DNA of 64,000 bases from Gluconobacter wancherniae NBRC 103581 (GTDB lineage: Bacteria > Pseudomonadota > Alphaproteobacteria > Acetobacterales > Acetobacteraceae): the NCBI RefSeq assembly GCF_007988885.1, contig NZ_BJUZ01000005.1:1-64000 (forward strand), written 5' to 3'. Positions within the stretch are counted from its first letter, which is position 1. Every line of letters begins with the position of its first letter. A model generated the notes under the pieces. The model ran no database searches, was not told where the DNA came from, and saw nothing but the letters and a program-made list of their open reading frames with translations. A program made the translations under genes and the position numbers. Below are positions 3,363-27,809 of the stretch, piece after piece.

Positions 3363-3363
3363 A

Positions 3364-3675
3364 ATGAAACGTCCAACCCGGCTGTCTGCAGGCGAAAAGC
3401 TCGTCCTGACAGCTAACCGCCTTTTGGATGGACAGATTGTTTGGCGGGATGCTTTCGGACAATGGTTACCTCAGATCCGCCACGCCGAGACGTATGACGC
3501 TGAGTCCGCGGAACTGGCACTTGAGAACGCGAAGCACAATGCTCAGCGTGATGGCGTTGTCGGTGTCTATGAAGTGGCAGTTCAGGACGGCTCAGCCATT
3601 GAGCCTGTGAGTGTTCGTGAGCGCATTCGGGCGCATGGACCGACTGTTCATCCACAGTTTGCAACGGAGGCGTAA
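3364..3675 (+). CDS. DUF2849 family protein
   Basis: This 103-aa soluble protein has no signal peptide. Its core (residues 8-75, including LLDGQIVWRDAFGQWLP) matches the small DUF2849 family, which in alphaproteobacteria sits between cysG and cysI. Its biochemical role is not known; the fixed position suggests an accessory function in assembling or feeding sulfite reductase (inference). It lies 1 nt after cysG and 1 nt before cysI, clearly in one operon. The ATG at 3364 gives a full family-length protein. Confidence 0.8.
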   Translation: MKRPTRLSAGEKLVLTANRLLDGQIVWRDAFGQWLPQIRHAETYDAESAELALENAKHNAQRDGVVGVYEVAVQDGSAIEPVSVRERIRAHGPTVHPQFATEA

Positions 3676-3676
3676 G

Positions 3677-5347
3677 ATGAACGCTCCTGTAGGTCATTAT
3701 CAATATGACCAGATTGATCGTAATTTTCTTCAGTCACGCATTGAAGAATTCGAGAGTCAGGTGCAGCGTCGGATTGACGGAACACTGACAGAAGATGAGT
3801 TCAAGCCACTACGACTGATGAACGGTCTGTATTTGCAGCTTCATGCTTATATGCTCAGGATTGCCATCCCGTATGGTATTCTTGACAGCAGGCAGATGAG
3901 AAAGCTGTCGGATATTGCCCATCGCTATGATCGTGATTATGGGCATTTCACGACGCGTCAGAATATCCAGTTCAACTGGATACGTCTTGAAGACACGCCT
4001 GCCATTCTGCGTGAGCTTGCCGACGTGGATATGCATGCCATCCAGACGAGCGGTAACTGCATTCGCAATGTGACGTCTGACGAATTTGCGGGCGCGGCGG
4101 CTGACGAGCTTGTGGACCCGAGGGTCCATGCTGAAATTCTCCGGCAGTGGTCTACGCTGCATCCTGAGTTTACGTTTCTTCCGCGTAAGTTCAAGATCGC
4201 TATTTCCGGTAGCCCTAACGATCGTGTGGCTGCGCGTTTTCATGATATCGGCATTCTCGCGCGTCCCGGGGTGGACGGTACCGTTTTTCGGATTTTTGTT
4301 GGCGGAGGCATGGGGCGCACACCGATCATAGGGCAGGAAATTTTTGACGCTGTTCCTGAAGATCGTTTGTTGGCGACGCTTGAAGCTATTGTTCGTGTCT
4401 ATAATGCTCATGGCAGGCGCGATAATATCTACAAGGCGCGGATCAAAATTCTGGTTCAGGCTATCGGCATCGAAGCCTATCGCGAGGCAGTGGAGGCTGA
4501 ACTCGCCCTCATGAATCCTGATCACTACCGCCTTACGCCTGAAACCGTCGCGGCGATCCGTGCACGTTTTGCTGTGCCGGAACTTGTGGCGCCGGATAAT
4601 GCGTCTGAAGTGCTTGCTCAGCAGCGTATCGCAGATCGTGAATTTGATCTCTGGGTGCGGAGCAATACCCACGAGCATCGCGCATCTGGGCACATAATTG
4701 CTGTTGTTTCCATGAAGCCGGCTGGCGGTATTCCTGGGGACGCAACGAGTGTGCAAATGAAGCGCCTTGCCGATTTGGCTGACGTGCATTCCTTTGGCGA
4801 ATTGCGGATTACGCATCTACAGAACGTAGTGCTTGGACATGTTCGTCAGGACAGGCTGCACGATCTGTGGTTGAGCCTGAGAGAGGTTGGTCTGGCTTCC
4901 GCGAATGTTGGCCTTATTGGTGATATCGTAGCTTGCCCAGGTCTGGATTATTGCGCTCTGGCCAATTCACGGTCCATTCCGATTGCGCAAAAGCTTGGCG
5001 CGCGCTTTGGAAACGCGGATTTGCAGGCAGAAATCGGTGCTTTGAGCATCAATATATCTGGCTGCATCAATGCTTGCGGGCATCATCACGCAGGTAATAT
5101 TGGCTTGCTTGGTGTGGATAAGCGCGGAGAGGAATTTTTCCAGATTACTCTGGGTGGTCGGGCTGATCAGGGTGCGGCTATTGGCTCCATCCTCGGTCCG
5201 GCTTTGCCAGAGGACGACACGGTAGACGCCATTGCGCGCATTGTGGACTGTTATCTTGGCAAGCGTACGGCTGGTGAAACATTCCTGGATACACTCTCTC
5301 GGCTAGGGGATGTCCCCTTCAAGGACGCTGCATATGAAGCTGTTTGA
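3677..5347 (+). CDS. cysI: Sulfite (or nitrite/sulfite) reductase hemoprotein subunit
   Basis: This reduces sulfite to sulfide with six electrons, using coupled siroheme and a 4Fe-4S cluster. The 556-aa protein has the two siroheme/cluster cysteine pairs of the family: CPGLDYC around residue 418 and SGCINACGHHHAGNIG around residue 460. No flavoprotein (cysJ) gene is adjacent, so electrons may come from ferredoxin or an unlinked reductase. The ATG at 3677 has GGAGG six bases upstream; an in-frame start at 3611 would run into DUF2849 and is rejected. It overlaps the following DUF934 gene by 14 bp. Confidence 0.9.
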   Translation: MNAPVGHYQYDQIDRNFLQSRIEEFESQVQRRIDGTLTEDEFKPLRLMNGLYLQLHAYMLRIAIPYGILDSRQMRKLSDIAHRYDRDYGHFTTRQNIQFNWIRLEDTPAILRELADVDMHAIQTSGNCIRNVTSDEFAGAAADELVDPRVHAEILRQWSTLHPEFTFLPRKFKIAISGSPNDRVAARFHDIGILARPGVDGTVFRIFVGGGMGRTPIIGQEIFDAVPEDRLLATLEAIVRVYNAHGRRDNIYKARIKILVQAIGIEAYREAVEAELALMNPDHYRLTPETVAAIRARFAVPELVAPDNASEVLAQQRIADREFDLWVRSNTHEHRASGHIIAVVSMKPAGGIPGDATSVQMKRLADLADVHSFGELRITHLQNVVLGHVRQDRLHDLWLSLREVGLASANVGLIGDIVACPGLDYCALANSRSIPIAQKLGARFGNADLQAEIGALSINISGCINACGHHHAGNIGLLGVDKRGEEFFQITLGGRADQGAAIGSILGPALPEDDTVDAIARIVDCYLGKRTAGETFLDTLSRLGDVPFKDAAYEAV

Positions 5348-5771
5348 TCTTGGGGCACGCGCCTCAAACTTCCATGAACAGCTTGTTCCCCTCGATGAAT
5401 TACAGAATTTTCCGGATGCCCGTGCTGTGCTGCTTGAAGCAGAGCATGACCCTGAACGGTTGAAGCCGTTTTTAGCGCATCTGGAATTGGTTGTTCTAAG
5501 GTTTCCGATCTTCCGTGATGGACGCCCGTTCACACAGGCACGGGCTTTGAGAGAATATTTAGGCTTCAACGGTGAAATCCGGGCAGAGGGCCATATTCTT
5601 CCGGATCAGGCTGCTTTTCTGAAACGCTGTGGCGTGGATAGTGTTGTTCTGTCGGAGGGGAGTGATCCGGCGCTATGGGAAAAGCAACTCCATCGGTTTC
5701 ATGAAGCGTATCAGCGAGCGGTCCTTCCGGAAGCGCCGCTTGGTGTTGGGCTTCGTGTGAAACCGAATTGA
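5334..5771 (+). CDS. DUF934 family protein
   Basis: The 145-aa protein matches the DUF934 family, known only by its association with sulfite reductase operons in proteobacteria; FRDGRPFTQARALRE near residue 61 is the family signature. In many relatives cysH (PAPS/APS reductase) lies between cysI and this gene; here the start lies inside the cysI end, so nothing separates them. The function is undetermined. The ATG at 5334 overlaps cysI by 14 bp, which implies coupled translation. Confidence 0.8.
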   Translation: MKLFDLGARASNFHEQLVPLDELQNFPDARAVLLEAEHDPERLKPFLAHLELVVLRFPIFRDGRPFTQARALREYLGFNGEIRAEGHILPDQAAFLKRCGVDSVVLSEGSDPALWEKQLHRFHEAYQRAVLPEAPLGVGLRVKPN

Positions 5772-5775
5772 TTTT

Positions 5776-5809
5776 GGACGTCCTGCAGGAATGTGGGACG
5801 CCCATTTTT
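5776..5809 (+). terminator. Terminator of the cys operon
   Basis: GGACGTCC (5776-5783) can pair with GGGACGCCC (5795-5803) with one mismatch around an 11-nt loop, and ATTTTTAT follows. It comes right after the DUF934 stop and before the convergent lysR gene. Confidence 0.55.
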
Positions 5810-5835
5810 ATATTCCTGATCGAATTCTTTATAGA

Positions 5836-6774
5836 TCAGGCCTCTGTCATACGTGTTTTATGCGCTTTTTCAGCCGTGCGAATTCGTCGAGCCTGATGAA
5901 TGAAATACAGTTTGGCGCCGGACATTTTGGAAGAACGAAACACCAGATAAAGTGGTGCTGTGAGTGGTGTATTGGGTGCCAGTAGTACGTAGCTGACCCT
6001 GTTGATATGATGTTGATGCACAGACTGCGGCACTAGCGAGACGCCTAGACCCCCTGCAACAAGATTCAGAGCTGACATCAACTGCGGCGCTTTTTGTTTG
6101 ATATTTGGTGTGAAACCAGCGCCAAGGCAGGCATCGATCACTGTTTTGTATAGGCCGTTATTGTATTGGCTCTGGTAAAGAATGAAGTCTTCATCCGCAA
6201 GATCTTTCAGCATCAGGCCCCCAGAAGGCTGAGAGCGTGCAAAGCGATGAGTTGATGGGAGGGCAACAACCATTGGCTCATCAAGAATCAATTCGACTGC
6301 GATGTCAGACAGGTCTGCAATTGATGTTCGGATGAATGCCGCGTCGATTGTGCCATCCCTGATTCCACCGAGTAGCAGGGTTGAATTTCCTTCCGTAAGC
6401 GAAAGAAGTACGTCAGGCCAAGCCTCACGAAATTCACCCAAAGCAGCCGGGAGGCTTGGATGGCACATTGCGGAATTTGTAAATCCGATGGATAGCTCTC
6501 CGCTTTCGCCTCTCGCGACACGTCGGACATCTTCCAGAGTATCCTCGACGCGTTCAAGGACTTCATATGCGCCTTTGATCATGCTTCGGCCTGCCGATGT
6601 CGGATGGACGCCGCGGGCGTGTCGTTCAAAAAGCTGGATGCCGAGATCTGTTTCAAGGGCGCGGAGCAGGCGTGTCAGTGGTGGTTGTTGTATTCCCAAC
6701 CTCTCGGCAGCACGGGTCAGATTGCCTTCCTCGGAAATTGCAATCAGGGAACGCAGGTGTCGAAGTTCGAGCAT
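5836..6774 (-). CDS. LysR-family transcriptional regulator
   Basis: A 312-aa LysR-type regulator. The N-terminal helix-turn-helix (residues 1-60: HLRSLIAISEEGNLTRAAER then QPPLTRLLRALE) is classical, followed by a type 2 periplasmic-binding-fold sensor domain (about 90-295). It is divergent from icd-acn, so control of isocitrate/citrate metabolism is plausible but not proven. A perfect ATAC-N7-GTAT box, the consensus of the BenM/CatM branch, lies 4 bp upstream of its start codon and suggests autoregulation. The inducer cannot be read from the sequence. Confidence 0.85.
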   Translation of the reverse strand: MLELRHLRSLIAISEEGNLTRAAERLGIQQPPLTRLLRALETDLGIQLFERHARGVHPTSAGRSMIKGAYEVLERVEDTLEDVRRVARGESGELSIGFTNSAMCHPSLPAALGEFREAWPDVLLSLTEGNSTLLLGGIRDGTIDAAFIRTSIADLSDIAVELILDEPMVVALPSTHRFARSQPSGGLMLKDLADEDFILYQSQYNNGLYKTVIDACLGAGFTPNIKQKAPQLMSALNLVAGGLGVSLVPQSVHQHHINRVSYVLLAPNTPLTAPLYLVFRSSKMSGAKLYFIHQARRIRTAEKAHKTRMTEA

Positions 6775-12212: not shown

Positions 12213-14372
12213 TTAGGCTGTCAGGAGCATTTTGTCCTGCGGCCGTGGTGTCGTGACGATGTATGGGCCTGCTGCTCTGATCTGCAGGGCAAGTATTGCA
12301 ACGCTGTTCGGTTGACGCTCACCTAATGGTAAAACCGCATTACCCGTGGTCCAGCGCATTTGGCCGTCTTCGATGTTGTTCCATCCTGCTAGATCAACGT
12401 TATCCAGATGAGACCTAATGTTGCGCGTCTCGTTACTTTCAAATAGCGTGATGCCTCCCACCAGTACCCCAAGCTCACGACGATCATCAACGAATGGGCC
12501 GATTACATCGCTTGGGCGACCGGAGTTTGATACAATTCGAACTTGCCGTACGCCTGTGGGGACCATGAACATGACACGGTCATCGCCTTTGCGGGCCTGA
12601 TAAATCACTGTACCTGTATCGGTGAGTAGATGCAGGTCGGGGTCATTTGTCAGTATCGGCTGATGGCTTTGTGTGGTGCACTCTCCGATGCCTGCCCTGC
12701 TTTCAATTTTGTGAAAAAGCGGCTCAACAAACTCGCGAGAGACATCCAGTGGAGCTGAGGCATCGTCCCAGGTCGGGATGCGATGAGCATTGATGGAAAC
12801 AATCTTGCCATTACGGCGCGAGAGGCCATGATTTTCGGTGTTCAAGAAAGATTCCGAACGGGCGCCGTTGGCTGTTAAAACAGCATGTTCTTCTGTTTCG
12901 ATGTGAAAGACGTCGAAGCGGACCATCGAGGTATCGTAGAAAATCGAACGCCCATTGACCAGCATACGGGTGGGAACGAATTTACCATCAAGGAACATGC
13001 AATGCTCTGCGGTGACGAGTAGGTCCTGATAGGGAATGCCATCGGCAAGTGCATTTTTAAGAATACGTACTGGATAGCCTGCAAGATCGATAGGAAGTGA
13101 CGGGTTTGCCACAACAGACTTTGAGCCGACCCAGACAACGGATTTCGTCACGTCTGAGTTTGCCGCGTTATCCCATGACATGAGCGTGTCACCAACGGAT
13201 ATGTCCTCGACAGCTTTCTCTCCATCGGGAGTGCGGATCATTGACCCAGAAAGATAACAAGGCGTTGTGCCCTTATAAGTAACAACGCCACCAGTGCTAT
13301 CGCTAAAGGTTCCCGTGTATCCCTTTCCCACATCATAAGTGTAAGTATTTGAAGATCCAGTAATTGTTAGAATGCCAGTAGTTTTATTGTAAGTTGCTGT
13401 TCCTGTGACGTTCAGGTCAAGTTGGTCGCCTTGGCTAAAGCCACGGATAATTCCTTTAAATGTCGCACCGTTCGAGACATTAAGAGTGTTATTTGCACTG
13501 GAAAAATTGAATGTCTGACCAGAGCCGGTGTTTGTTCCCTGTAACGTCAAATTAGCATTGTTGGTGAGATTAACAGTTCCGCCTGAGCCAGTAAGAGCAT
13601 TGGCAATAATAAGGTTGGCGTCTGTTACGTTTATTGTTCCATTATTCGTATAAGAAGAAGAGCCGCCTTGAATTTGAATATTACCAGCGCCATTGCCCTT
13701 TGATGTTATGGACCAGTTTCCTGTGTTCGCAAAGCCGCCAGAACCTACCTGTGTAATTATTGTGGAAGCTGCGGGAACACTGAAAGAAACAGAGCCTGAA
13801 TTTGCTATTTGTTTGAAATTGAGATTTGTAGTTGATCCTGAGGATCCAGCAGAGTCATCTACGGAAAAAGAGCCGGTATTGTTAAAGGTCCCGCTTCCGT
13901 TTCCCCAGTTGGACGTCATTCCTGATCCGCTGGTATCAAGAACTCGAATGTTGCCTTCGTTTGTAAGATTTACAACGTAGGGAGCACTGATTGTTGAAGC
14001 GCCCGCAGACTCTAAGGTTATGCTTCCCGAAGAGCTGTTATTGATTGTTCCATACTGCAGGTAAACACTTGATTCGGAAGTCGTATTAGACTGATTGTAG
14101 GTTATTGACCCTGTATTGTTGAGTGTATTCGAAGACCCACTCCCCAGATAAAAGGTGTTCCCGGAGCCTACTGTTGAGGGAATATAGGAAATAATTCCCG
14201 CATTTGTTAGATTTCCATATATATAAACAGTATTAGCTGCTGGTGGCGTAAATAATAGCTGTCCTGATTTAGTGTTGGTAAGTGTGTTTGATGAAGAAGG
14301 GTTTACTGTAACGCTCGCAGTGTAGGTTTGAGTTGTGCTATTTGTCCCACCATTTTGGAAAGTGTCACTCAT
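12213..14372 (-). CDS. Repeat-rich surface protein with C-terminal Hint domain
   Basis: The 719-aa protein is low-complexity and rich in Asn, Thr, Ser and Gly over residues 1-370, with loosely repeated NxTNxGxI-like units typical of beta-helical passenger domains. A Hint (hedgehog/intein) domain starts near residue 371 with CYLSGSMIRTPDGEKAVEDI and includes TAEHCMFLDGKFVPTRML. Such Hint-2 proteins are common in acetic acid bacteria and are thought to self-cleave or be secreted; no classical signal peptide is visible. The ATG at 14372 has AAGGA upstream; a TTG at 14429 would add 19 residues. Base composition is more AT-rich than the core genome, so it may be acquired. Its role (adhesion or secretion) is inference. 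Confidence 0.7.
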   Translation of the reverse strand: MSDTFQNGGTNSTTQTYTASVTVNPSSSNTLTNTKSGQLLFTPPAANTVYIYGNLTNAGIISYIPSTVGSGNTFYLGSGSSNTLNNTGSITYNQSNTTSESSVYLQYGTINNSSSGSITLESAGASTISAPYVVNLTNEGNIRVLDTSGSGMTSNWGNGSGTFNNTGSFSVDDSAGSSGSTTNLNFKQIANSGSVSFSVPAASTIITQVGSGGFANTGNWSITSKGNGAGNIQIQGGSSSYTNNGTINVTDANLIIANALTGSGGTVNLTNNANLTLQGTNTGSGQTFNFSSANNTLNVSNGATFKGIIRGFSQGDQLDLNVTGTATYNKTTGILTITGSSNTYTYDVGKGYTGTFSDSTGGVVTYKGTTPCYLSGSMIRTPDGEKAVEDISVGDTLMSWDNAANSDVTKSVVWVGSKSVVANPSLPIDLAGYPVRILKNALADGIPYQDLLVTAEHCMFLDGKFVPTRMLVNGRSIFYDTSMVRFDVFHIETEEHAVLTANGARSESFLNTENHGLSRRNGKIVSINAHRIPTWDDASAPLDVSREFVEPLFHKIESRAGIGECTTQSHQPILTNDPDLHLLTDTGTVIYQARKGDDRVMFMVPTGVRQVRIVSNSGRPSDVIGPFVDDRRELGVLVGGITLFESNETRNIRSHLDNVDLAGWNNIEDGQMRWTTGNAVLPLGERQPNSVAILALQIRAAGPYIVTTPRPQDKMLLTA

Positions 14373-14651
14373 AACTGCTACATCCTTTTGAGGGTTTGCG
14401 AAGTCGAGCGTAAATGTTTTTTTTATCAAATCAAGAAAATACGTTATTTTTTTGGTAAATTTAATAAATTGACATTAAAATATTAACGATTTTTCCTTAA
14501 TTTACAAAATGATTGTGTTACAATCGCTTATGGCCTGTTGAGTGTAATTGAAGTTCTGCTCTCATTCCGTGACGGGCATGAAATGGACCTGTTCCGGTTT
14601 TATGCGTGTTGACTGAGCGTTTTAAGCGTGACTCAGGAGGGGCGGGGTACC

Positions 14652-14821: not shown

Positions 14822-15772
14822 ATGAAACAGCTTGGTTTCTTTGATGTTGAAGAGCGGCTTGCTCGGCTGAGCGGGCTTGGTGATCAGCTTGAAGCGTTCC
14901 GCCCTGATCTGGAGCAGGCTTTGGCCTATTCAGATGGGAGTAAAGGCGAGCGTCCGCCGTTTGATCCGGTACTGATGTTCAAAACCCTGGTGATCCAGAC
15001 GCTCAACAATTTGTTTGATGAACGGACGGAATATCTGATCAACGATCGCCTGTCCTTCATGCGTTTCCTTGGCCTGGGGCTGTCGGACCGTGTGCCTGAT
15101 GCCAAAACACTCTGGTTGTTCCGTGAACGCCTGACGCAGGCGAGAGCGATTGAGGGTCTGTTCAATTGTTTTGATACAGCCCTGCGAAACGCAGGCTATC
15201 TGCCGATGTCGGGCCAGATCCTGAATGCAACATTGGTAGCCGCTCCAAAGTAGCGCAACACGAACGCTGAGAAAGCCGACCTCCGGGTAGGGCGTATTCC
15301 TGAAGACTGGCAGGATAAGCCATCCAAATTGTCCCACAAGGATCGCCATGCGCGCTGGACACTGAAGTTCACCAAAGCGAAGCGGCAGGATGACGGAACG
15401 ATCCCCGCAACGGATCCTGCCGCCAGCGATGGCGCGCGATTGAGAGAGGGGCTGCTGGATAAAGCCAATATGGCCTCAAGCGTCTGGGCTGATACAGCGT
15501 ATCGCTCAAAAGCCAATGAGGGCTTTGTCTCAAAGGTTTACACGAAGAAGCCGCATCTCAAACCCGTGCCACTCCATATCCAGCGGTCCAATGCAAGAAA
15601 ATCGGTGATACGCTCGCGTGTCGAGCATGTCTTTGCTGATCAGAAATCGCAAATGGGTCTGTTCGTCCGAACTGTCGGCATCACCCGGGCCACCATGAGG
15701 ATCGGACTGGCCAATAGTGTCTACAACATGCGCCGCTTGCTCTTCCTCGAAAGATTGAACGCAAACGCATAG
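14822..15772 (+). pseudogene. IS5-family transposase, inactivated
   Basis: One reading frame covers a nearly whole IS5-type DDE transposase interrupted by an in-frame TAG at 15251-15253, where CAG would be expected. The N-terminal part (MKQLGFFDVEERLARLS) and the C-terminal part (VWADTAYRS, then SRVEHVFADQKSQMGL) are clear. Three lesions are seen. The first catalytic Asp is Asn (GQILNATLVAAPK). The TAG cuts the chain after 143 aa. About 30 residues that normally follow TIPATD, including the GYK region of the catalytic core, are missing. The transposase cannot be active. Element ends were not identified with certainty. Confidence 0.75.
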
Positions 15773-15793
15773 CTATCCAGCGGGGGACAGCCC

Positions 15794-15818
15794 TTGATCT
15801 GCTCAAAACGCAGATCAA
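15794..15818. repeat. Inverted repeat behind the transposase relic
   Basis: TTGATCTGC (15794-15802) and GCAGATCAA (15810-15818) are perfectly complementary around seven bases. It lies between the transposase stop and the end of the rep gene. It may belong to the IS right end; no T tract follows. Confidence 0.35.
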
Positions 15819-15840
15819 AAGTGACCCAAAGAACCGTCAA

Positions 15841-17178
15841 TCAAAGCGCCAAAAGCCAAAAATCACCAGCCAAGCGCATCAACCAACAGTTCTTCGATCC
15901 CTCTACCTCTAAACAACTTGAAATGACATCAGAATGAAGTGCTGTTGTCCTGATTGAATTCTGACGTCTGACCATGGATGTCTGGCTGACAGGAGATGCA
16001 TTGAAATCCTTCACTGTTCTGAAATGCATGACATGCACCAGAGCGGTCAGCGTTCTCGGCATTCCTCTGCGGACATAATGGAAATCGGGATGACGGGCTG
16101 ATATCCGGTTCAATCTCTCATCGGAAAATCTCCGCATCAGGAGCAGGGCTGTTCCACCAAGGGCTTTTCGCTTTATCAGCCTGTGAGCTGTGGCAACTCT
16201 TGCATCGGACAGAGTGCCATAGCGTTTGCCTGCATGAATACTCGTATAACGGCTTCGGATGTCCCGGGTCAGTCCAATAAACGTCAGGCTGGTTTCGGGC
16301 TTTCCATAGTCCTTGGTGAGATATCGCGAAACAGACAGCACATCGCGGATATCCTTGATGGCGTCTGCCTGTCGGTCCACTTCATTTGGAAACGCCTGAA
16401 GGATCTGTTCCTCAAGCCAGGCTCTCTGGGAGGGGTCTACATAGAGCTGGATATGGTAATGCGGTGTTTCATCATTCTGGAGTTCCAGCGCTGTCATCCC
16501 CGGCAGGAGAATATCCTTCTCCCGGGCTTTGCGTCTGACACTTTTCCAGCGTCTGGAGATTTCGGCTTTGGCCTCTTCATAGGAACAGGCATGGTATGAT
16601 CCGGGTAAGGTCAGGGTCAGAAACAGTCCCTGATAGTCCAGAAATCCCGTGGCGAAGTCGTGCAGGCTGTCGGCTATCGCCAGCGTGACTGCGTAATGTT
16701 TTTTGAGATGCCACTGACGTAAATCATGAGCAGACAGTCCGGTGTCCGGGTTCTGTCTGTCAGGAACGACGATGAACGTTTTGCTGGCTGTCAGTTTCTC
16801 GGCGTCAAAAGACTGTTGAATCCTGTCCCGTTCCGGGGAGAGGTCCAGAACCCTGCGGAGATTACGGCGTAACCTGTTGGCTTTGCGTGTGAGAACCTGT
16901 CCTGTGATTCGCTGGGTCTGTTTCAGCTCGTCATAAGATTGGGAGAGAAGGTTAAAGCCGGAAACGAGGTCTTCGGGCAGGGTTTCAACCCAGGCCACGA
17001 CGTCCATGGCAACCTGTTCGGTTTCTTCAAAACAGGCCAGAAATTCGCAGTTTCCTGCGATCTTTTGGGTGATTACGTTCTTGTAAAAAACATGCAGGGG
17101 CAACAGTCTGCGCCAGATGTCTGGTCTGGTGGTTCTTATCCAGTGGTCTATCTCGTCATACTGCACATCATCCTGCAT
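15841..17178 (-). CDS. HUH-family replication endonuclease (Rep)
   Basis: The 445-aa protein has the three motifs of rolling-circle replication initiators in order: FLTLTLPG (residues 186-193), the metal-binding HxH in PHYHIQLYV (H240 and H242), and a catalytic-tyrosine motif RYLTKDYGK (Y286, K289, Y291). Proteins of this type nick DNA at a replication origin and stay linked to the 5' end. Finding it between an IS relic and an integrase suggests an integrated plasmid, phage or satellite. The last 45 residues look unlike the rest and run up to the IS region, so the C-terminus may have been replaced by an insertion. The exact family (phage gpA-like or plasmid Rep) is not resolved. Confidence 0.65.
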   Translation of the reverse strand: MQDDVQYDEIDHWIRTTRPDIWRRLLPLHVFYKNVITQKIAGNCEFLACFEETEQVAMDVVAWVETLPEDLVSGFNLLSQSYDELKQTQRITGQVLTRKANRLRRNLRRVLDLSPERDRIQQSFDAEKLTASKTFIVVPDRQNPDTGLSAHDLRQWHLKKHYAVTLAIADSLHDFATGFLDYQGLFLTLTLPGSYHACSYEEAKAEISRRWKSVRRKAREKDILLPGMTALELQNDETPHYHIQLYVDPSQRAWLEEQILQAFPNEVDRQADAIKDIRDVLSVSRYLTKDYGKPETSLTFIGLTRDIRSRYTSIHAGKRYGTLSDARVATAHRLIKRKALGGTALLLMRRFSDERLNRISARHPDFHYVRRGMPRTLTALVHVMHFRTVKDFNASPVSQTSMVRRQNSIRTTALHSDVISSCLEVEGSKNCWLMRLAGDFWLLAL

Positions 17179-17335
17179 CTTTCCCCGTATAAGCGTGGAG
17201 AGAAGCAGAATGGTCTATAATGGTTTTGTCGCAGATACATGCCTTACTTCCTTCTCCTGAATGGTCTTCGGGATGTTCTCCAGTCCTGAGAGGGAAGTAT
17301 AGCAGATGGTCTTGCAGTTTTGTTTCGAAGAGGGA

Positions 17336-18970
17336 TTATTGTTTTCCCATTAATCTCTTCAGGTCCCAAAACTCAGGATATGACATGGAATCCGCAACAC
17401 GTTTGAGGTTTGTGATATCCACGTCATCGAAATAGACGGTATTGCCAACCGACTTGTTCAAGCCTTCATGTCCGAGAAAATCATCAATCCATGACTCTCG
17501 AAGTCCACCGTCGCCATGTTCATGAATATTGCGGAGCTTGGTTGAGACGTTGTGCCGGAAAGAATGAAAAACCTTCTCCCGGCCAATGCCGAGGCGCGAT
17601 TTAAAGCTCGAGAAATTTCTCTGGAAGATTCCGGACCGTTTCATGTCCATGCCTGTAAAATTCAGGTCCTTGAACAGATAACGACGTCGCTGGTTTTTAG
17701 CACGTTCGGCCATCTCTGCGAGGCCCGTATCCAGGAGGGGCTGACACAGGGGAACGATGCGAGCACCGGCTTCAGTCTTGGGGTCCCATGCTTCCCAGGG
17801 TGCGTCTTTATGAGCACGGTGGACCTGCACCACAATGCACCAGACATCCTGGATCTGGATGATATCCTGCGGTCGCAGTCGGCAGATTTCTTCCTCCCGC
17901 ATTCCCGTATAGGACGCGATGCCGACAATCAGACCAAAAGTGGCCTGACTGATGGTTTGGAACGGCCATGGATTTTCGATGAGCGTTATCAGGTCATCGT
18001 TTGACCAGCGGATACGCTGTGTTTTTGCTGTGGTGTCGAACTTCCAGCCTCCAACAAACGGGTTGCGGTCAACCTTGCCGATGGGTTCATAATGGCGCCA
18101 GAGAGCAGACAGTCGTGTGAAATGGTTCTTGGTCGCTTTTCCTGAGATACGCTCCAGATTTTTCCTATTGGCTTCTGAGACCAGTTCAGCGACGGTCCGC
18201 ATATCCTTGCGGTTTTTGCCGTAATTGACCGGCAGTTGCTCCATCATTGTTTTGAAATCGGAGGCATCTTCTCCCGCATAGTCGCGGATAGGTCTGTCAC
18301 CACAGATTTCGACAAACCTTTTATACGTGTTGCGATGTTCGGCGATGACGGAGGGTTTGGCTTTCTTGGCCTTGAGGCTCAGGAAGGTTTCGGACGCTTC
18401 CGAGAACAGGGGGGAAGGCTTGGGGGCTGGAAGCTGAACAAGTTGTGTCAGCACGGCAACCTGCTCTGCGAGCTTTGTCAAAGCGACCTCGCCCGGGTTC
18501 CTTGCAGACTTGCCCAGTTTGTAAATGATATCTGTCAGGGCGTTGATTTCGGGACCAATCTTTTCAAGCACGCTGGAGACCCGTTGGTGGTCTTCCATCC
18601 TTGCCAGAAGATGCTCGGCATTCATGGTGTTATAGCGAGCTTTCAGAGCCTGAATCTCACTGTCATAGGTCTGGATAATGGACTGAAACAGGTCCTGCTG
18701 GACAGGATGAAGGTCCGAGGTGGAGAGAGCTTCCTGAAACGTCTCAATCACAGTGTTGAGCGAAGATGTTTCTTCCGGGTGAGACATGGCCAGACTGATG
18801 CACTCGAAAAGCTGAGAGGTCAGTCCATACATGGCACAGGCACGGGTTCTGGCAAGATTTCTGTTTGGCGTCTCAAGAGAATGCCAGATTTCCCGCTTTC
18901 CCAGAATCGGCCTGAAGCGGAGAGGAATTCCGCGTCTGAAGTGGAAACCGGATTGCAGACGAATCAGCAC
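17336..18970 (-). CDS. Tyrosine integrase B
   Basis: A 544-aa site-specific recombinase. The short N-terminal domain begins FHFRRGIPLRFRP, a long coiled middle region follows, then a core-binding domain and a C-terminal catalytic domain with TGMREEEICRLRP (Arg), HSFRHNVSTKLRN (H-x-x-R), LGHEG, and a Tyr in NTVYFDDVD. Its start is 93 bp from a 27-bp copy of the tRNA-Leu 3' end, which marks it as the integrase that inserted an element there. It resembles integrase A (25989-27632) in layout and size. Together with the HUH Rep it belongs to an older element now cut off from the tRNA gene by the younger one. Confidence 0.88.
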   Translation of the reverse strand: MLIRLQSGFHFRRGIPLRFRPILGKREIWHSLETPNRNLARTRACAMYGLTSQLFECISLAMSHPEETSSLNTVIETFQEALSTSDLHPVQQDLFQSIIQTYDSEIQALKARYNTMNAEHLLARMEDHQRVSSVLEKIGPEINALTDIIYKLGKSARNPGEVALTKLAEQVAVLTQLVQLPAPKPSPLFSEASETFLSLKAKKAKPSVIAEHRNTYKRFVEICGDRPIRDYAGEDASDFKTMMEQLPVNYGKNRKDMRTVAELVSEANRKNLERISGKATKNHFTRLSALWRHYEPIGKVDRNPFVGGWKFDTTAKTQRIRWSNDDLITLIENPWPFQTISQATFGLIVGIASYTGMREEEICRLRPQDIIQIQDVWCIVVQVHRAHKDAPWEAWDPKTEAGARIVPLCQPLLDTGLAEMAERAKNQRRRYLFKDLNFTGMDMKRSGIFQRNFSSFKSRLGIGREKVFHSFRHNVSTKLRNIHEHGDGGLRESWIDDFLGHEGLNKSVGNTVYFDDVDITNLKRVADSMSYPEFWDLKRLMGKQ

Positions 18971-19063: not shown

Positions 19064-19090
19064 GTGGTGCGAGCTGCGGGACTCGAACCC
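19064..19090. repeat. attL: left copy of the tRNA-Leu attachment repeat
   Basis: These 27 bases (beginning GTGGTGCGAGCTGCGGG) are identical to 27723-27749, the 3' end of tRNA-Leu. Both copies are also preceded by TTTTCAATAA and a near-identical TTA. The pair bounds an integrative element of about 8.66 kb. Confidence 0.85.
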
Positions 19091-19413
19091 AATGTTGCGG
19101 GACGTATCCCGCACACAAACCGTTGAAAATACGTCGAAAACGCCGACGCCAGTCTTTCCATTGCCATATACTCGTCAAGAGTCTGGCAGACATTCTGGTA
19201 ACGTCAAGCCTCTCTTGAGAGCTCTCATTGTAGGCAGTCGCACGATGTGTGGAGACTGGACTCAAACGTTACAAAAGGCTTCAAGAATATCTGAGACTGT
19301 ACGGTTAACGTGGTGGTCTCACATGACCCGCGTGCCCTGAAATTCCAGTTCTATTGGGACTAGAATAGAAAGCTGGCAGCGAACGAAATTATGAATGAAC
19401 GATGGGACATATC
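19091..19413. other. Left end of integrative element A, no gene
   Basis: No coding sequence is supported. Just inside the att copy is a hairpin, TGCGGGA (19096-19102) / TCCCGCA (19107-19113) with a CGTA loop, which may be a recombinase or excision-factor binding site. The rest holds nothing recognisable. Confidence 0.4.
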
Positions 19414-19923
19414 ATGAAAATTTCAGGTTTCGCACTTTCGAGCTTTCTTTTTGCCATAGCGCCTTTTTTGTCTGGAGGTGCGGCTTTGGCAGATGACATC
19501 CATATGGCCCAGACCCGTTTTGGTTTAGCAGATGGTTCCGACAATGTTCTCAAGGTGAATGGTCATCTCACTACTCCTGAAATCGACGGCAATAGTGGAA
19601 TGTTTGTCGAAAAAATTACCCAGACAGCAGATGCGGATTATCTGCTTCTAACGGACGTCGGAGGAACGGCCTGTCCGGCCCTGTTCTCCATCGTGAAGGT
19701 AACAGGAACCTCTGCAACTCCGATGGCCTGGTTCGGGAATTGTGATGATGAACCACAGCGCGCTATCGTTCCGGGCAAAAGTGTGACGCTGACTTTTCCC
19801 GCTTTTCGTCCACTTCGTTTTAAGGGTACCCCCGCAGTAACGTATGTCTACGACATTCCCACGGGCGTTTTGAAGAGGGACGGCAAAGCCGTTCCAACAG
19901 CCTGCAAAGGTAAATGCGAGTAA
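19414..19923 (+). CDS. Secreted protein of unknown function
   Basis: The protein has about 169 aa with a clear Sec signal peptide (a hydrophobic stretch FALSSFLFAIAPFLSGG and a cut after ALA near residue 27). The mature part is about 140 residues, probably beta-rich, with four cysteines (GTACPALF, GNCDDE, TACKGKCE) that could form two disulfides. The family is not recognised. It is the first gene inside the element, next to the mobilisation genes. ATG 19414 is chosen for a standard signal peptide; ATG 19402 adds four residues. It might be an entry-exclusion, adhesion or inhibitor protein, but nothing in the sequence decides this. Confidence 0.6.
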   Translation: MKISGFALSSFLFAIAPFLSGGAALADDIHMAQTRFGLADGSDNVLKVNGHLTTPEIDGNSGMFVEKITQTADADYLLLTDVGGTACPALFSIVKVTGTSATPMAWFGNCDDEPQRAIVPGKSVTLTFPAFRPLRFKGTPAVTYVYDIPTGVLKRDGKAVPTACKGKCE

Positions 19924-20113
19924 GCTTTACCTTAATAGTTTTTGAATAATTATTTGCCTGTCTGGTGTGATGTTTCCGGGCAGGCACTCCACGGTGAAGA
20001 ATTTATTTTAAGAAATTTGATAGCTCCTCTAATTTTCTTCTGTCGTTTTCTGAAATTCAGTTTCTGAATTGCTATCCTGTTTTCTGAGGTTCTCTTGAGC
20101 TGAGCCAGCAGTG

Positions 20114-20652: not shown

Positions 20653-22455
20653 ATGATTGTTCAAGAAACCAGAATTAAGAGCAGCAGCGGGCATCAGGCG
20701 GTTTCACGTCATGTTCTCTCGGGAGCCCAGAACGAAGCCATCCGTCGCATTTCGGGCAGCGACTATCTGCTCAAGGATTGGATGAAAGAAGCGAAACGCG
20801 AAGGCATTCGATACGGCCTGAGGCACATTGCGTTTAATCCCTCCGAGACGATGACAGATCAGCAGCTGTCTGACTTTGCAGGAGACATCTGCCGAGAACT
20901 TGAGGCTGATCCCGAACGAATGACCTTCGTGATTCATCAGAAAGACGGGAAAACCCACGGCCATCTCCTGCTTCCCGAGTGGCAGCAGTCTCACGTTCTC
21001 AGTAGCAAATTCTCATGGGTCAGGTTGGAAAAGCTGGCCCGTCTCGCAGAGGTAAAGTTGGGGCACGCTTTGGTGCCAGGAAGGCATGACAAAGCTATCG
21101 TCAAAGCCCTCAGAGAGTCCGGAGAGCATGACGCTGCCAGAAAAGTTGAAGCCCTAATTCCGACTGAGAAGACACCGCCTCCCGTTGCAGCCTACACGTC
21201 ACAAGCAAGACGGATGGCGGAACGCCAGGATTTTGATCTTCCCACTGCTCGACGCGAGATCATGACGTTCTGGGAGAAGTCAGAGAATGATTTGCGGAAA
21301 TTCAGACATTTTCTGTCGAGCAAGAACTGGCACATGCGGGCTGGAGACCGAACAGATCGCGGGCGTGAGGCCCACATCATCGAGACAGCTGATGGCGTGT
21401 TGATTGGGTCATTCACGCGACTGACGAAAGTCAGAATGAAAGACTTCCGACAGCTTCTTGAAGACGAAGCCTCCAAGAAGCCGCTTCTGGACCTGCGCCC
21501 AGTTGCTCAAAAGAGTGAAGCACGAGAGGCCAGACGGGCCTTCCTGAGCCAGCGGGAACATACAGACGAGACGAAGGCAGAACGACTTCGGATCCAAGAG
21601 CGTCTGCTCAGCATTGTGCCATTCAAAAACCCTGAGCGCCTGAGCCCCGGATTGCAGATCTATTTCAAGGACTGGAAGAGGGAGATGCAAGCGGCCCGTG
21701 CCGTTCTGAACGCCAGGCATCCGTTAGAAAAGAGATATGGGTCAAAAGTCTCTCTGGATATGCAGACGGCAGACGTTATGAAAATGATGCGACAGGGCTG
21801 GGCCAAGCTGAGGAAGGCGAATGCTTTGGTCGCAGAGGCCCGTAAAGCGCTCAATGAGCTTGAAGAGCGGAAATGGGAATTTTTTCGAAAACGAAAAATC
21901 TCAGACGCGGAAAAGGTATTGCAGGAGGCTTTAGCTCAACTGGCTGAAATCCTCAGATATTGTGTTGAATTCATTCTCTATCATCTCGGGTTAAGCAATC
22001 AAAAGCCTGCGCCGCTTCAGATCCCTGTTCCAGTAGAGCAGGAGATGGCCCGTCAAGATTATCTCGAGAGGAGGGCAGATCTTCTCAAGACTCTTCTTGA
22101 TGAGAAGGCCTGCCGGGATTGGGTTAAGGGCCGATGCCGTGATGCGGAGCACAAACGCGCTCGCGTGATTGCACAATGGCACGAAGATCGTGTGCCAGAG
22201 GTGGAAAAAGCTGAGCAGATGGTCATGCAGCTTGAAACGCTCGCACGACTGCCACGCCGTATTCCTGGAGAGGTCAGGGCCCGTATTGAGACCCTCAAAA
22301 GGTGCGGTGACTTTCAAGGGACATTGAATGAAGTTAGGCTGTTTGACGCCATGCAACGACCTCTGGCGTTAGAAGAGTCGCCAAAAATAGTGTCTCATCA
22401 ACGTTCTAAGATTGAGAGGGTGGCAACCCCCTCAATTCAAGCTGCTCTTTTGTAG
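20653..22455 (+). CDS. mobA: Relaxase (MobA/VirD2 type)
   Basis: The 600-aa DNA-nicking enzyme starts conjugative transfer of the element. The relaxase domain (about residues 1-170) has the metal-binding motif with three histidines, FVIHQKDGKTHGHLLLPEW near residue 96. The catalytic Tyr is probably one of those in the first 55 residues, but I cannot say which. The rest (about 200-600) is long, charged and helical without a recognised helicase or primase motif. With MobC and oriT but no type IV secretion genes, the element can be mobilised only by a helper. Spacing to mobC is 33 bp. Confidence 0.85.
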   Translation: MIVQETRIKSSSGHQAVSRHVLSGAQNEAIRRISGSDYLLKDWMKEAKREGIRYGLRHIAFNPSETMTDQQLSDFAGDICRELEADPERMTFVIHQKDGKTHGHLLLPEWQQSHVLSSKFSWVRLEKLARLAEVKLGHALVPGRHDKAIVKALRESGEHDAARKVEALIPTEKTPPPVAAYTSQARRMAERQDFDLPTARREIMTFWEKSENDLRKFRHFLSSKNWHMRAGDRTDRGREAHIIETADGVLIGSFTRLTKVRMKDFRQLLEDEASKKPLLDLRPVAQKSEAREARRAFLSQREHTDETKAERLRIQERLLSIVPFKNPERLSPGLQIYFKDWKREMQAARAVLNARHPLEKRYGSKVSLDMQTADVMKMMRQGWAKLRKANALVAEARKALNELEERKWEFFRKRKISDAEKVLQEALAQLAEILRYCVEFILYHLGLSNQKPAPLQIPVPVEQEMARQDYLERRADLLKTLLDEKACRDWVKGRCRDAEHKRARVIAQWHEDRVPEVEKAEQMVMQLETLARLPRRIPGEVRARIETLKRCGDFQGTLNEVRLFDAMQRPLALEESPKIVSHQRSKIERVATPSIQAALL

Positions 22456-22639
22456 TCATGCCAATCGGTTATGGATTGTATCTCCGGTCGCTTAAGGGGT
22501 TTTTAGAACCCTCCAGATGAGCGCCTAACGGCCGATAAAACCTTGGTGTTTATTCCTGAATTCCTATTCTGTAGTTGTAAAAACAAATTTTTGCACATGC
22601 AAAATCCACCCATTCCAAAATCAGGTGTTTTTGGGACAG

Positions 22640-25600
22640 CTAATTACTATCTCCTTTTGGGTCGACCCCTTTCATCGCATTCTCTATAGTCTTAACTCCA
22701 TAATTAAGCCCGGTTGGACCAATTATTCTCTTTGCTGCATTTGAGAAATAATGTGAATCAACATTCTGATAATGAAGCCAGTAAAGTCTATTTAGCAATA
22801 AATGACTTACTGAAACTCTAACAACAGAAGAACCATTATAATTAGAAAATACTTGTTTTATAGATTCGTATCCCTTTTTGGGGTTTGACTCCATAAGCCA
22901 TACGGCCTTCAGTACGTCTTTTAGGCCATCAGATTCTTTACAAGAAAAAATAATCGGGCTTAGAACCAGTACTCCCGCCAGAGAACAAATATTATTCATT
23001 ATTCGAGAAATGGGCTCCATAATTAAATTTGTCTGAAAATAAGAAACAAAAACACCTATCTCTTTTTTTATTTTTGAAAACATTTCCTCATCAAAATCAG
23101 ATTCGTTCATAAACTTTTTTATATTATCATAAGATAATATTTCTTCTTTGAATTTTTTAAAATCTATTTTTAATCTGTTTATAGTCCAAATATTCGCAAA
23201 TTTATCATTGCAATCCAAACAGGATTTTATAATTCTCTCTTTTGAATTCTTATTTATAGACTCAGATCCGGAACCAATAAGAGTAAGAGTAATCACAGAT
23301 GCTCGCGACAAACCATCAAGAATATAAAATTCTTCCTGAACATTTTCTTCAAGATTTTCATCGTCATCTTTTTTTCTTTGATTCAAACCACTAATAACAT
23401 GATTTTGAGTGTCAAGTATTCTTTGCTTTTCTACTCTTACATTCTTAGTAGAATCTGCCTTTTGTAATTTATCAGCTATTTTATTAATATTTTTCGATAC
23501 ATCTGCCATATTCAAGGTATTAATAATTGAATTTAAATCAGTTTTCTTATGAAAGAAAACATTCTGATCTCCATATAATTCTATAGATAAATTTGTATAA
23601 AAATCAGAGTAATCGCATACGGAGTCTATAACATTTTCACTGGGACCCATTTCGCAATATAAATCAAATGAGTAAATATCAAAATTCTCTAATTCAGGAT
23701 TAAAGTATTCTTGCGCTAATGAATCATTTTCCTTCAGGGAGCATGCTATTAAATAGCTCTCCAAATAAGGATGAGAGAAATATACATTTCCTCCTAAATT
23801 GTGAAGAAGTCCAAATTTAAAAAAAGGACTGATAAACTCTGATTGATCTATTTCATAGCCATATTCATGCAAAAATTCAGATGAAATTTTCGCTAAATCA
23901 GTATCTTTGATGTAACTAAATTTATTTTCTATTTTATATTTACAAATTCTAGACAAAAATCTTTCTAATGTGGTTCGACTTAAGTTCAAAGAAGTTGGAT
24001 CATAAGCTACTATAAGACTCAGAAGACCCTGAACTGCAAATTGAATTAGCTCGGCTCTTTTATTGGCATTTATAAGAGCTATTAAGGTATCTTCTTGAAT
24101 TAGAGTAAAATAAGAAGGGTCAACCTCAATTCTAAATTTTCTGAATGTATTTTCAAGCCTAATCGCCACGGACTCCGCTTTTGACGGTGTCATATCGAAG
24201 GTCTTCTCAAGAAAAATAGCCGTTTCAGAAAAAGAAATTCTTTTCGTTGTATATTCAATTGTGTTTGTATCACTCAGAAAAGAGTCTAAAGTTCCTGCTT
24301 TATCTTCTATTTTTGACAAAATTACAACGAAGTTAGTTGATTCTATTATTTGATTTTTTAAAAATTCATTTTTTGTTCGGGATGAAAAATCTGGCTCTTC
24401 TATAATATAGACTTTTTCAAATAATTCATAATTTATATTATCATCTTTTAGATAATTCGGCGAAAGCTTATTAAAACTTTTTCTTGGAGGAGAAACATCT
24501 TTTCCATCTATTAAAATAGGAAGAATTTGCTTATCTCCAATTTGATTTCTTATCAAATAGTAAGACAAATATATTCCAAGATTAATTCCAGAAAATGTTC
24601 TCGGTATTCTAACAAATATATTTCTATTTTCTTTTAATGCCTCAAGAACACCTTCTGGCTGGTTTATATTACCATCAGCCGAATTTGCACCTGAAACAAA
24701 TTTTTGGACACGAGGTAACGGAAAATAGAAAGTGTCAGACTTAGAACTAAAGGAGGAACACACCTCCCTTAGACGAATTTTTATTTCATTATCGAGACGT
24801 GGAACAATATCGCTAGTTAAGTCAAATTTTTCTCCTATATCTTCGCCTTCGTCAGATTTTTTTTTTAAAAAATCAAAGAATTTTACATTTTCCATTTGTC
24901 GCTTCAGAAGACTAATTGCATTCTGCATAGCTAACGTGCGGAATTTACCAGAATTTGATGTCTCAACAGAATTTTTATTTCTATCTGCCATATCACTAAT
25001 ACCACGAATGGCTATAGATGGAATTTTAGCTTGTTCACACCAACCAAAAACTCCACCAGATTCAGTTTCTATAGCAATAACTTTTCTATTTATATCTTTT
25101 AATTTCTCATTAAAGGCATTACTAGCTGAAACTGGCCCACATACTATGGGGCCAATATGTAAACTATACTGTATTTCTTCATTTATAATTCCTATTAAAT
25201 TTTCATTTTCTTTTGTATCAACTTGCCATTTATTGTATATAGGCTTTAGTTCTGGGTGGACCTTCAAGAATCTAAACGATGTAATGTACTCTGCATCCAC
25301 CATATAGAAATCTGGAGAAAATCTTAATTTTGTCTCTTCATCTCGTTCGCTAAATTTATTGTTGTTTAATACGTCGATAATTTCGTTTGATACACATACG
25401 TCGCCTATTTTTACGTCGTCTGTGATTCCGCCAGCAATTCCTATTACTACAACAGCATGAGGTTTGAATTTTTGAACTGCTACGTCGACCGCAAGTGCAG
25501 AGCTTTTAGCTCCCATTTTATTAGAAAGTACTGAAAACAAACGAATCGAATCATTGCCGGATTCGTGTTCAAATAAAAATTGTGTAGTAGTGGAACTATC

Positions 25601-25690
25601 ATGAATAGGTGGAAATTTTTCTAAAAAAATCTCATACTCTTCGTCCAAAGCTATTGTCGCTAAAATTCTTGGTTTTTCATTTTCATTCAT
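22640..25690 (-). CDS. Nucleoside phosphorylase-like domain fused to degenerate STAND/NACHT-like module
   Basis: A 1016-aa cytoplasmic protein. Residues 1-265 form a purine nucleoside phosphorylase/MTA-SAH nucleosidase fold with GIAGG (84-88), GDV (96-98), CGPVSASNAF (184-193), IETESGGV (207-214) and RGISDMAD (229-236), so the key Glu and Asp are present. Residues about 320-650 look like a STAND/NACHT NTPase: a VYIIEEPDF Walker-B-like strand (427-435), a sensor-like FVVILSK, and a winged-helix end FFKFGLLHN...YFSHPYLESYLIA (623-649). The P-loop position reads IFVRIPRTFSGINLG (358-372), without the GxxGxGK(S/T) signature. The helical 370-residue C-terminus is unrecognised and may be the sensor. 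Nucleoside-cleaving effectors fused to STAND modules are known from surveys of bacterial conflict systems; an abortive-infection role is inferred. The gene is far more AT-rich than its neighbours. ATG 25690 has an AAAGGTG site; a TTG lies at 25714. Confidence 0.75.
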   Translation of the reverse strand: MNENEKPRILATIALDEEYEIFLEKFPPIHDSSTTTQFLFEHESGNDSIRLFSVLSNKMGAKSSALAVDVAVQKFKPHAVVVIGIAGGITDDVKIGDVCVSNEIIDVLNNNKFSERDEETKLRFSPDFYMVDAEYITSFRFLKVHPELKPIYNKWQVDTKENENLIGIINEEIQYSLHIGPIVCGPVSASNAFNEKLKDINRKVIAIETESGGVFGWCEQAKIPSIAIRGISDMADRNKNSVETSNSGKFRTLAMQNAISLLKRQMENVKFFDFLKKKSDEGEDIGEKFDLTSDIVPRLDNEIKIRLREVCSSFSSKSDTFYFPLPRVQKFVSGANSADGNINQPEGVLEALKENRNIFVRIPRTFSGINLGIYLSYYLIRNQIGDKQILPILIDGKDVSPPRKSFNKLSPNYLKDDNINYELFEKVYIIEEPDFSSRTKNEFLKNQIIESTNFVVILSKIEDKAGTLDSFLSDTNTIEYTTKRISFSETAIFLEKTFDMTPSKAESVAIRLENTFRKFRIEVDPSYFTLIQEDTLIALINANKRAELIQFAVQGLLSLIVAYDPTSLNLSRTTLERFLSRICKYKIENKFSYIKDTDLAKISSEFLHEYGYEIDQSEFISPFFKFGLLHNLGGNVYFSHPYLESYLIACSLKENDSLAQEYFNPELENFDIYSFDLYCEMGPSENVIDSVCDYSDFYTNLSIELYGDQNVFFHKKTDLNSIINTLNMADVSKNINKIADKLQKADSTKNVRVEKQRILDTQNHVISGLNQRKKDDDENLEENVQEEFYILDGLSRASVITLTLIGSGSESINKNSKERIIKSCLDCNDKFANIWTINRLKIDFKKFKEEILSYDNIKKFMNESDFDEEMFSKIKKEIGVFVSYFQTNLIMEPISRIMNNICSLAGVLVLSPIIFSCKESDGLKDVLKAVWLMESNPKKGYESIKQVFSNYNGSSVVRVSVSHLLLNRLYWLHYQNVDSHYFSNAAKRIIGPTGLNYGVKTIENAMKGVDPKGDSN

Positions 25691-25988
25691 TGCAGTAGAC
25701 ACCTTTTGAAACAATATTTTTACCCTATAATTTCATTTTCTCACGTGCAACAAAAAATATCCCGTCGGTTTCGAATAAATAGGAATTTTGCTTCCAAATC
25801 TACAATAATGCAATATATCGAGATTTATGGCGGTCTCGTAGAGACGCAGAAAATATGCAGAAATCTCATTGCTTGAAAATCTTTGACCTGATTGTGGGGC
25901 GAGCATGTGTTTGCTGATCAAAAACCACCATCTCAATCACAATGCTTATCCCACAGAGGCCTCTGCTTCCCCAGAGCTGCCGTCAGCT

Positions 25989-27722: not shown

Positions 27723-27749
27723 GTGGTGCGAGCTGCGGGACTCGAACCC
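27723..27749. repeat. attR: right copy of the attachment repeat within tRNA-Leu
   Basis: Identical over 27 bp to 19064-19090. It overlaps the 3' end of tRNA-Leu (T arm, acceptor strand and CCA), so insertion left the tRNA intact. Confidence 0.85.
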
Positions 27750-27809
27750 GCACGTCCTTACGGACTCGAGATTTTAAGTCTCGTGCGTCTACCATTCCGC
27801 CAAGCTCGC
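27724..27809 (-). tRNA. tRNA-Leu (anticodon UAA)
   Basis: The 86-nt class II tRNA has a GCGAGCT/AGCTCGC acceptor stem, CGAGA/TCTCG anticodon stem with loop CTTAAAA (anticodon UAA at 27776-27774), a variable arm GTCCGTAAGGAC, a T loop TTCGAGT and an encoded CCA. It lies 9 nt past the stop of the metallopeptidase gene on the same strand, so it may be processed from that transcript. It is the integration target of element A and, by inference, of element B. Confidence 0.95.

Follow-up and report, generated by a model that had tools for sequence, protein, structure and literature searches.

Immune ATP nucleosidases, in the form of the third gene of Detocs and of Cap17, were reportedly described by Rousset and colleagues in 2023. 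Bacterial systems resembling NOD-like receptors (NLRs) and carrying a purine nucleoside phosphorylase (PNP) effector are listed as Cap17 in a published table (PMC10952713), and fungal NLRs can carry a PNP_UDP_1 effector, with Walker A and Walker B used as landmarks of their nucleotide-binding domain (PMC12258605). DS-8, a validated antiphage protein, joins a metallophosphatase to a NACHT module (NCBIfam NF053861; PMC13092281), and the iSTAND proteins of MoxR-vWA ternary systems combine a catalytically inactive STAND (signal transduction ATPases with numerous domains) module with nucleotide-acting domains N-terminal to it (PMC7159879). PNP-NLR fusions, inactive STANDs and DS-8 are known already, each separately. 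Here, we describe a PNP-STAND protein encoded as the cargo of a mobilizable element in a 64,000-nucleotide stretch of Gluconobacter wancherniae NBRC 103581 (contig NZ_BJUZ01000005.1, positions 1 to 64,000; hereafter the window). By computation, its nucleosidase active site is intact, its STAND fold is kept, its Walker A and B motifs are lost, and its gene lies in a defense-type slot. Our search of the open-licence literature found no paper on an antiphage NLR or nSTAND4 protein with a missing P-loop or degenerate Walker A, and no conserved, single-gene, partnerless PNP-STAND lineage devoid of a P-loop.

The window protein resembles DS-8 in packing an effector, a STAND module, an nSTAND4 segment and a helical C-terminus into one gene, with a kinship that profiles can detect; however, its effector is a PNP (PF01048) and not a metallophosphatase, and it reaches 19.1 bits with the DS-8 model, whose cut-off is 790. 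With Detocs and Cap17 it shares the PNP domain, whose best PADLOC match is PDC-M60C, but it has no response-regulator domain (Response_reg gave no match at E 1 in the cargo protein) and no three-gene set, a STAND being fused to it instead. As in the PNP-effector NLR-like proteins, the PNP is N-terminal to an NLR-like switch; the Walker A and B landmarks used for the fungal proteins are, in contrast, both lost in the window family. Similarly, it shares with iSTAND an inactive STAND behind a nucleotide-acting domain, although no MoxR or vWA gene lies beside it and the fused effector is a PNP. Finally, it has the fold and the catalytic Glu/Glu/Asp of methylthioadenosine/S-adenosylhomocysteine (MTA/SAH) nucleosidases (MTANs), but scores 70.5 bits with their curated model against a cut-off of 169, and is fused to a STAND.

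The loss of the P-loop is a property of the whole family. Three homologue searches returned at least 34, at least 64 and 56 proteins; they scored the best candidates only, so rarer architectures could be missed. At least 87 distinct proteins, including the window's own, were all aligned. An earlier note on this DNA, made from the letters alone, had read the gene as a nucleosidase-STAND fusion with a lost Walker A at residues 358-372, and both points hold: GxxxxGK[ST] is found nowhere in the sequence of any family protein (0/87), and GK[ST] is absent from the P-loop position of all 84 proteins with residues there (three of the 87 have none and were excluded). In its place stands a loop of its own, [RK]x[FY][PS] in 81/84, where x is one of S, T, N, A and E. 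By position, R or K occurs at 364 in 83/84, Y or F at 366 in 84/84, P or S at 367 in 84/84, and W at 373 in 79/84, the window's own protein having I at 373. At Walker B position 431 (n=86), the residue is E in 54, D in 12, N in 12, S in 4, T in 2, Y in 1 and H in 1; it is acidic in 66/86 and the canonical Asp in 12/86. Conservation is instead concentrated in the HD1-like segment 486-563, the highest of seven segments compared (mean top-residue frequency 0.80), where 30/78 columns reach at least 0.9 versus 8/145 in the nucleotide-binding core (first 70 proteins). P525 and Y527 in this segment are invariant (87/87), and in P-loop relatives the Pro motif falls opposite P525.

Because MTAN chains filled the matches of a full-length fold search, the STAND module was folded alone, through family member P0003. 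With AlphaFold and Foldseek it groups with NOD2, NLRP3 and NLRC4, so the NTPase fold whose absence would have counted against the earlier note is retained: the predicted structure has an alpha/beta NTPase core, an HD1 and a winged helix in the NLR arrangement, and departs from a STAND/NACHT protein in the Walker A GxxxxGK[ST] and the Walker B Asp. Searched by sequence against solved structures, the STAND-only profile gave nothing meaningful (best E 0.19). We conclude from the alignment that the loss of Walker A is not decay, as it is common to the family, comes with its own replacement motif and leaves the PNP catalytic residues invariant; the word "degenerate" in the earlier note was therefore right about the P-loop and wrong in the decay it implied. 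The pairing of the two halves appears stable as far as the lists show. Among the matches listed for the STAND-only query, PF01048 is present in 54/64 proteins; of the other 10, P0031, P0032 and P0044 start within the PNP domain and four were not inspected. The matches listed for the PNP-region query, within the allowed length range, are family members only.

The nearest relatives found are, judged by profiles, DS-8-type STANDs. PF24406 (nSTAND4), which in the window protein scores 22.9 bits by protein scan (below its cut-off of 27) and 29.4 by genome search (above it), was searched in two overlapping genome sets, 299 from the phylum and 369 from one class. Besides the window, it gave eight distinct matches, one of them cut by a contig end (L064) and seven with a complete NTPase core, whose effectors are a metallophosphatase in two, TIR in four and a weak DUF4062 (18.2 bits, below the Pfam cut-off of 24.7) in one. 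With the DS-8 model, three TIR-STANDs score 335-570 bits across STAND and C-terminus and one metallophosphatase protein 194 bits, all under the cut-off; a genome search with the same NCBIfam model matched 62/147 genomes, mostly over short N-terminal stretches, with none over the cut-off. Profile-profile comparison of the family with four PF24406 relatives gives a probability of 94 (hhalign E 1.4e-7) over 530 columns, starting just after the P-loop. A joint MAFFT alignment runs ungapped across the P-loop, with GKT facing PSQ-type residues (SGI in the window protein); GKT is kept in 6/7 of the core-complete relatives with other effectors. The nSTAND4 segment, homologous core and homologous C-terminus place the module, on this evidence, in the DS-8-type STAND superfamily, a kinship beyond the reach of the earlier note, which had the letters alone. 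This suggests a STAND chassis to which different nucleotide-acting effectors can be fitted, with the P-loop exchanged in the PNP lineage.

In the nucleosidase half, the N-terminal domain matches PF01048 and has the MTAN/PNP superfamily fold with the catalytic Glu/Glu/Asp; E18, E210, R229 and D233 are invariant among the aligned family proteins (7-13 of the 87, without letters at a given site, were excluded). PDC-M60C is also the top match of the third gene in the Detocs-like set with which a sibling element fills the same cargo slot. Compared over six-frame open reading frames (ORFs), with true MTANs included, the family PNP profile gives 37-71 bits for Detocs-like PNPs, 44-58 for five MTANs over their cut-off, 7-63 for seven weaker MTAN-like matches and at most 28.9 for the 13 reported of 14 other PF01048 proteins. 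Because the profile fits MTANs equally, the kinship with Detocs was not used to argue for (d)ATP. Cleavage of (d)ATP would be a guess by analogy with Detocs, and an MTA/SAH-like substrate would fit the sequence as well. Another PNP fusion was seen in L151 (G798:C264:8995-9666), where a 649-residue open frame holds an MTAN-like domain with 84 bits (below the MTAN cut-off) and 63 bits with the family PNP profile.

The slot in which the gene lies also points to defense. The attachment (att) core of tRNA-Leu, counted as matches of 23-31 bp with at least 93% identity, is present in 14/26 genomes of the genus including the window's, 8/14 with a copy on the tRNA's own contig, and is therefore a busy site of tandem integration. 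Eleven stretches from seven att-bearing genomes were taken, with selected proteins scanned in L098-L101 and L105; the cargo of L097, L102-L104, L106 and L107 lay outside the scan. L099, L101 and L105 have the MobC-relaxase-integrase chassis in common with the window (identity of 69-90% for MobC, 60-66% for the relaxase and 70-92% for the integrase, of which L099 aligns just the first 444 residues), and their DNA homology ends inside the end of the relaxase gene at 22199 and returns at 25969, while that of L097 extends to 22344. As the earlier note had proposed, the gene is thus cargo between relaxase and integrase, where siblings carry other genes, and it is more AT-rich than its surroundings (31.1% G+C content (GC) vs 52.6% in the remainder of the element). 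The slot has one ORF of at least 80 residues on the coding strand, and the gene is single-copy in the 2.78-Mb genome.

Defense, which the earlier note had offered as the likely role, gains support from the siblings' cargo. Three cargo genes in L099 match PDC-M60A/B/C, the A match being weak (E 3.7e-7); the second encodes a receiver domain and the third a receiver and a PNP. Going by this architecture, PDC-M60 would correspond to Detocs and the set would be Detocs-like. HsdM, HsdS and a PtuA-like ATPase occupy the slot of L101, and a type III methylase, a Res-like protein and a UvrD-like helicase that of L105. The more distant L100 (relaxase 54%, integrase 40% identity) holds an MvaI/BcnI-type restriction-modification pair and GmrSD-like, HEPN, SIR2-like and HerA-like genes, and L098 has HsdR-like and dynamin-like genes. 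The same slot of one tRNA-Leu chassis would thus hold a PNP-STAND in one species and, in a congener, a Detocs-like set, the third gene of which also encodes a PNP domain. Two details of these elements stand apart: in L100, the adjacent SIR2-like and HerA-like genes behind the integrase (3055-6406, +) are a probable SIR2-HerA defense pair, and in L098 a 548-residue ORF without Pfam match (15389-17035, -) matches the element relaxase from about residue 80 and not at the N-terminus, as a chimeric or recombined relaxase gene might.

Homologues are sporadic. At E 0.001, 11/195 genomes matched, with a full-length protein in three only, including the window's; the figures were 4/397 at the family level (E 1e-20) and 1/26 at the genus level. 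Phage records gave no match, and only one plasmid record covers at least 80% of the protein. Mobile or phage-related neighborhoods were seen for several homologues. L002 adjoins an integrase and a resolvase; L004 also adjoins a resolvase, and a gene weakly resembling an integrase is close by. L020, a viral contig, has capsid and tape-measure genes, and the relative is present there as two ORFs. A 116-kb plasmid carries the A. oryzifermentans copy, whose surroundings include an HsdR gene, toxin genes (BrnT and MazF) and transposases. The GC of the gene is 47% in L022 and 53% in L023, where most ORFs are at 61-72%. At the relatives' inspected loci, no recurring neighbor gene was seen by eye and in partial Pfam scans. 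The A. oryzifermentans homologue (L021 10835-10843) has an A9 run at the linker, where the frame changes and PNP and STAND become two annotated ORFs; the annotated A. thailandicus protein likewise starts after the linker, and its gene was not found in the second family sample. Phase variation through the A10 run of the window gene was given little weight, because A10 arises at the same place in 570/2000 synonymous shuffles.

The reading that we favor, at a probability of about 0.57, is that of a single-gene sensor-effector of NLR/STAND type that defends against phages or other mobile genetic elements, with a purine-cleaving PNP and without a canonical NTP-binding switch. The C-terminal helical region and the STAND scaffold would sense a signal of infection and change shape. 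Since the P-loop and Walker B Asp are lost in the members examined, switching would rely on ligand-driven opening or on assembly, and not on canonical ATP binding and hydrolysis; the remodeled loop, [RK]x[FY]P, might assist it. Opening or assembly would activate the N-terminal MTAN-fold nucleosidase, which would cleave the N-glycosidic bond of a purine nucleoside or nucleotide, and the resulting loss from the nucleotide pool would starve or kill the infected cell in an abortive outcome. The gene itself would be exchangeable cargo of the tRNA-Leu mobilizable element. Some of our own observations weigh against this proposal. The family PNP profile does not tell MTANs from Detocs-like PNPs by score. 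The DUF4062-like relative L140 has GLT instead of GKT, so that the PNP lineage is not alone in having lost the Lys. Moreover, L097, with 82% DNA identity over the mob genes, has no integrase match and carries genes that look metabolic by eye; it falls outside the defense-cargo pattern. L140 itself (2523-4391, -) shows an apparently separate loss of the phosphate-binding Lys.

Given the exchange of the P-loop for an [RK]x[FY]P...W loop, we could also tentatively speculate, at less than even odds, that this NLR-type lineage switches without ATP, being opened by its trigger alone or held closed by the purine nucleotide that its nucleosidase destroys. If true, such an NLR would have as its target the very molecule that fuels it. 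A numerous natural family with a kept fold, an intact effector and an exchanged loop offers a direct route to the question of how NTP binding serves NLR activation.

It is possible, though rather unlikely, that nucleotide binding (of ATP, ADP or the effector substrate) persists in the STAND through the remodeled [RK]x[FY]P loop and the conserved HP[ST]YF of HD1. The module would then be a switch locked by a nucleotide, or would monitor the pool destroyed by the PNP. The non-random loop and the invariant P525 and Y527 described above would suit such a site, but other residues stand in place of the phosphate-binding Lys and Ser/Thr, the Walker B Asp is not conserved, and the core is among the less conserved parts of the protein. 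Alternatively, the STAND might be a passive scaffold or dimerization arm that takes its energy from a partner encoded elsewhere in host or phage, for example a chaperone-like ATPase of the kind that iSTAND systems have. Inactive STANDs acting with MoxR-vWA partners have been described (PMC7159879); however, the slot holds no partner ORF of at least 80 residues on the coding strand, and no recurring neighbor was seen at the relatives' inspected loci, which makes this improbable. Resemblance of the PNP domain to MTA/SAH nucleosidases is what would speak for a metabolic nucleosidase or phosphorylase with a decorative C-terminus and no defense role, a housekeeping explanation that we rejected as very improbable on the sporadic distribution, the AT-rich insertion in higher-GC hosts, the mobile or phage contexts and the defense genes in the siblings' slot, the host genome moreover encoding two further PF01048 proteins. 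A pseudogene decaying by drift, to which the low GC and the frame-broken linker of the A. oryzifermentans copy might point, has hardly any probability left, as relatives of about 1000 residues are numerous and all 84 proteins with residues at the P-loop position lack GK[ST] while the PNP catalytic and some HD1 residues stay invariant. For the favored sensor-effector reading, the underlying features are located in Table 1.

Table 1. Positions in the window of the cargo gene, its parts and the element that carries it.
Feature	Position	Strand	Basis or remark
Cargo gene, PNP-STAND protein, 1016 aa	22640..25690	-	ORF, protein-family scan, homologue searches
Cargo slot	22345..25968		Limits set by sibling DNA homology
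MTAN-fold nucleosidase/phosphorylase domain, residues 1-276	24863..25690	-	E18, E210, R229, D233 invariant where aligned
A10 run in inter-domain linker (coding sequence 825-834)	24857..24866	-	Read from sequence
Five-strand nucleotide-binding-type core of STAND/NACHT fold, residues 341-485	24236..24670	-	Predicted structure, fold search
P-loop position, residues 358-373	24572..24619	-	Replaced by [RK]x[FY][PS]xxx[LI]xW; window: VRIPRTFSGINLGI, without the W
Walker B position, residues 427-433	24392..24412	-	Asp replaced by E here; E/D/N/S/T/Y/H across family
HD1-type segment, residues 486-563, with HP[ST]YF (window: DPSYF)	24002..24235	-	Family alignment
nSTAND_NTPase4 (PF24406) segment, residues 593-647	23750..23914	-	Profile scan
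C-terminal helical region, residues 656-1016, presumed sensor	22643..23725	-	Sensor role inferred
Attachment repeat, distal copy	19065..19090	+	26 bp identical to tRNA-Leu 3' end
tRNA-Leu(TAA), integration site	27724..27809	-	3' end 27724-27749 = proximal attachment repeat
MobC/NikA-like mobilization accessory protein, 135 aa	20212..20619	+	NikA-like E 2.1e-9, MobC E 1.2e-7
MobA/VirD2-like relaxase, 600 aa	20653..22455	+	PF03432 E 2.2e-4
Tyrosine integrase, 547 aa	25989..27632	-	DUF6538 + Phage_integrase; adjoins tRNA

The element spans 8.66 kb and is flanked by a 26-bp repeat of the tRNA-Leu(TAA) 3' end, with two exact copies in the window versus 0 expected in 100 shuffles. Its MobC/NikA-like protein is 90% identical to the counterpart in L099, and its relaxase, at 60-66% identity to those of the three chassis siblings, scores 21.9 bits with PF03432, slightly under the cut-off of 24.6. 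With an integrase beside the tRNA, flanking att repeats, a relaxase and MobC, it has the make-up of a tRNA-site mobilizable integrative element, its mobility being predicted from these genes. Sibling DNA homology is also broken at 19209-20030, in the stretch that separates the mob genes from the distal att end; this may be a second exchangeable slot. A second tandem element (15841-18970), whose own far end was not found, adjoins the distal att copy; its integrase (17336-18970) and G2P/GPA-like Rep (15841-17178) are 92% and 85% identical, respectively, to those of L104, a stretch directly at the tRNA-Leu att of a congener. Near it lies a transposase like those of insertion sequences, split over two ORFs by eye (14822-15772). 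Beside the island, a gene at 12213-14429 (-) encodes a 738-residue repetitive protein in which a Hint-like stretch, CYLSGSMIRTPDGEKAVEDISVGD, was noticed by eye.
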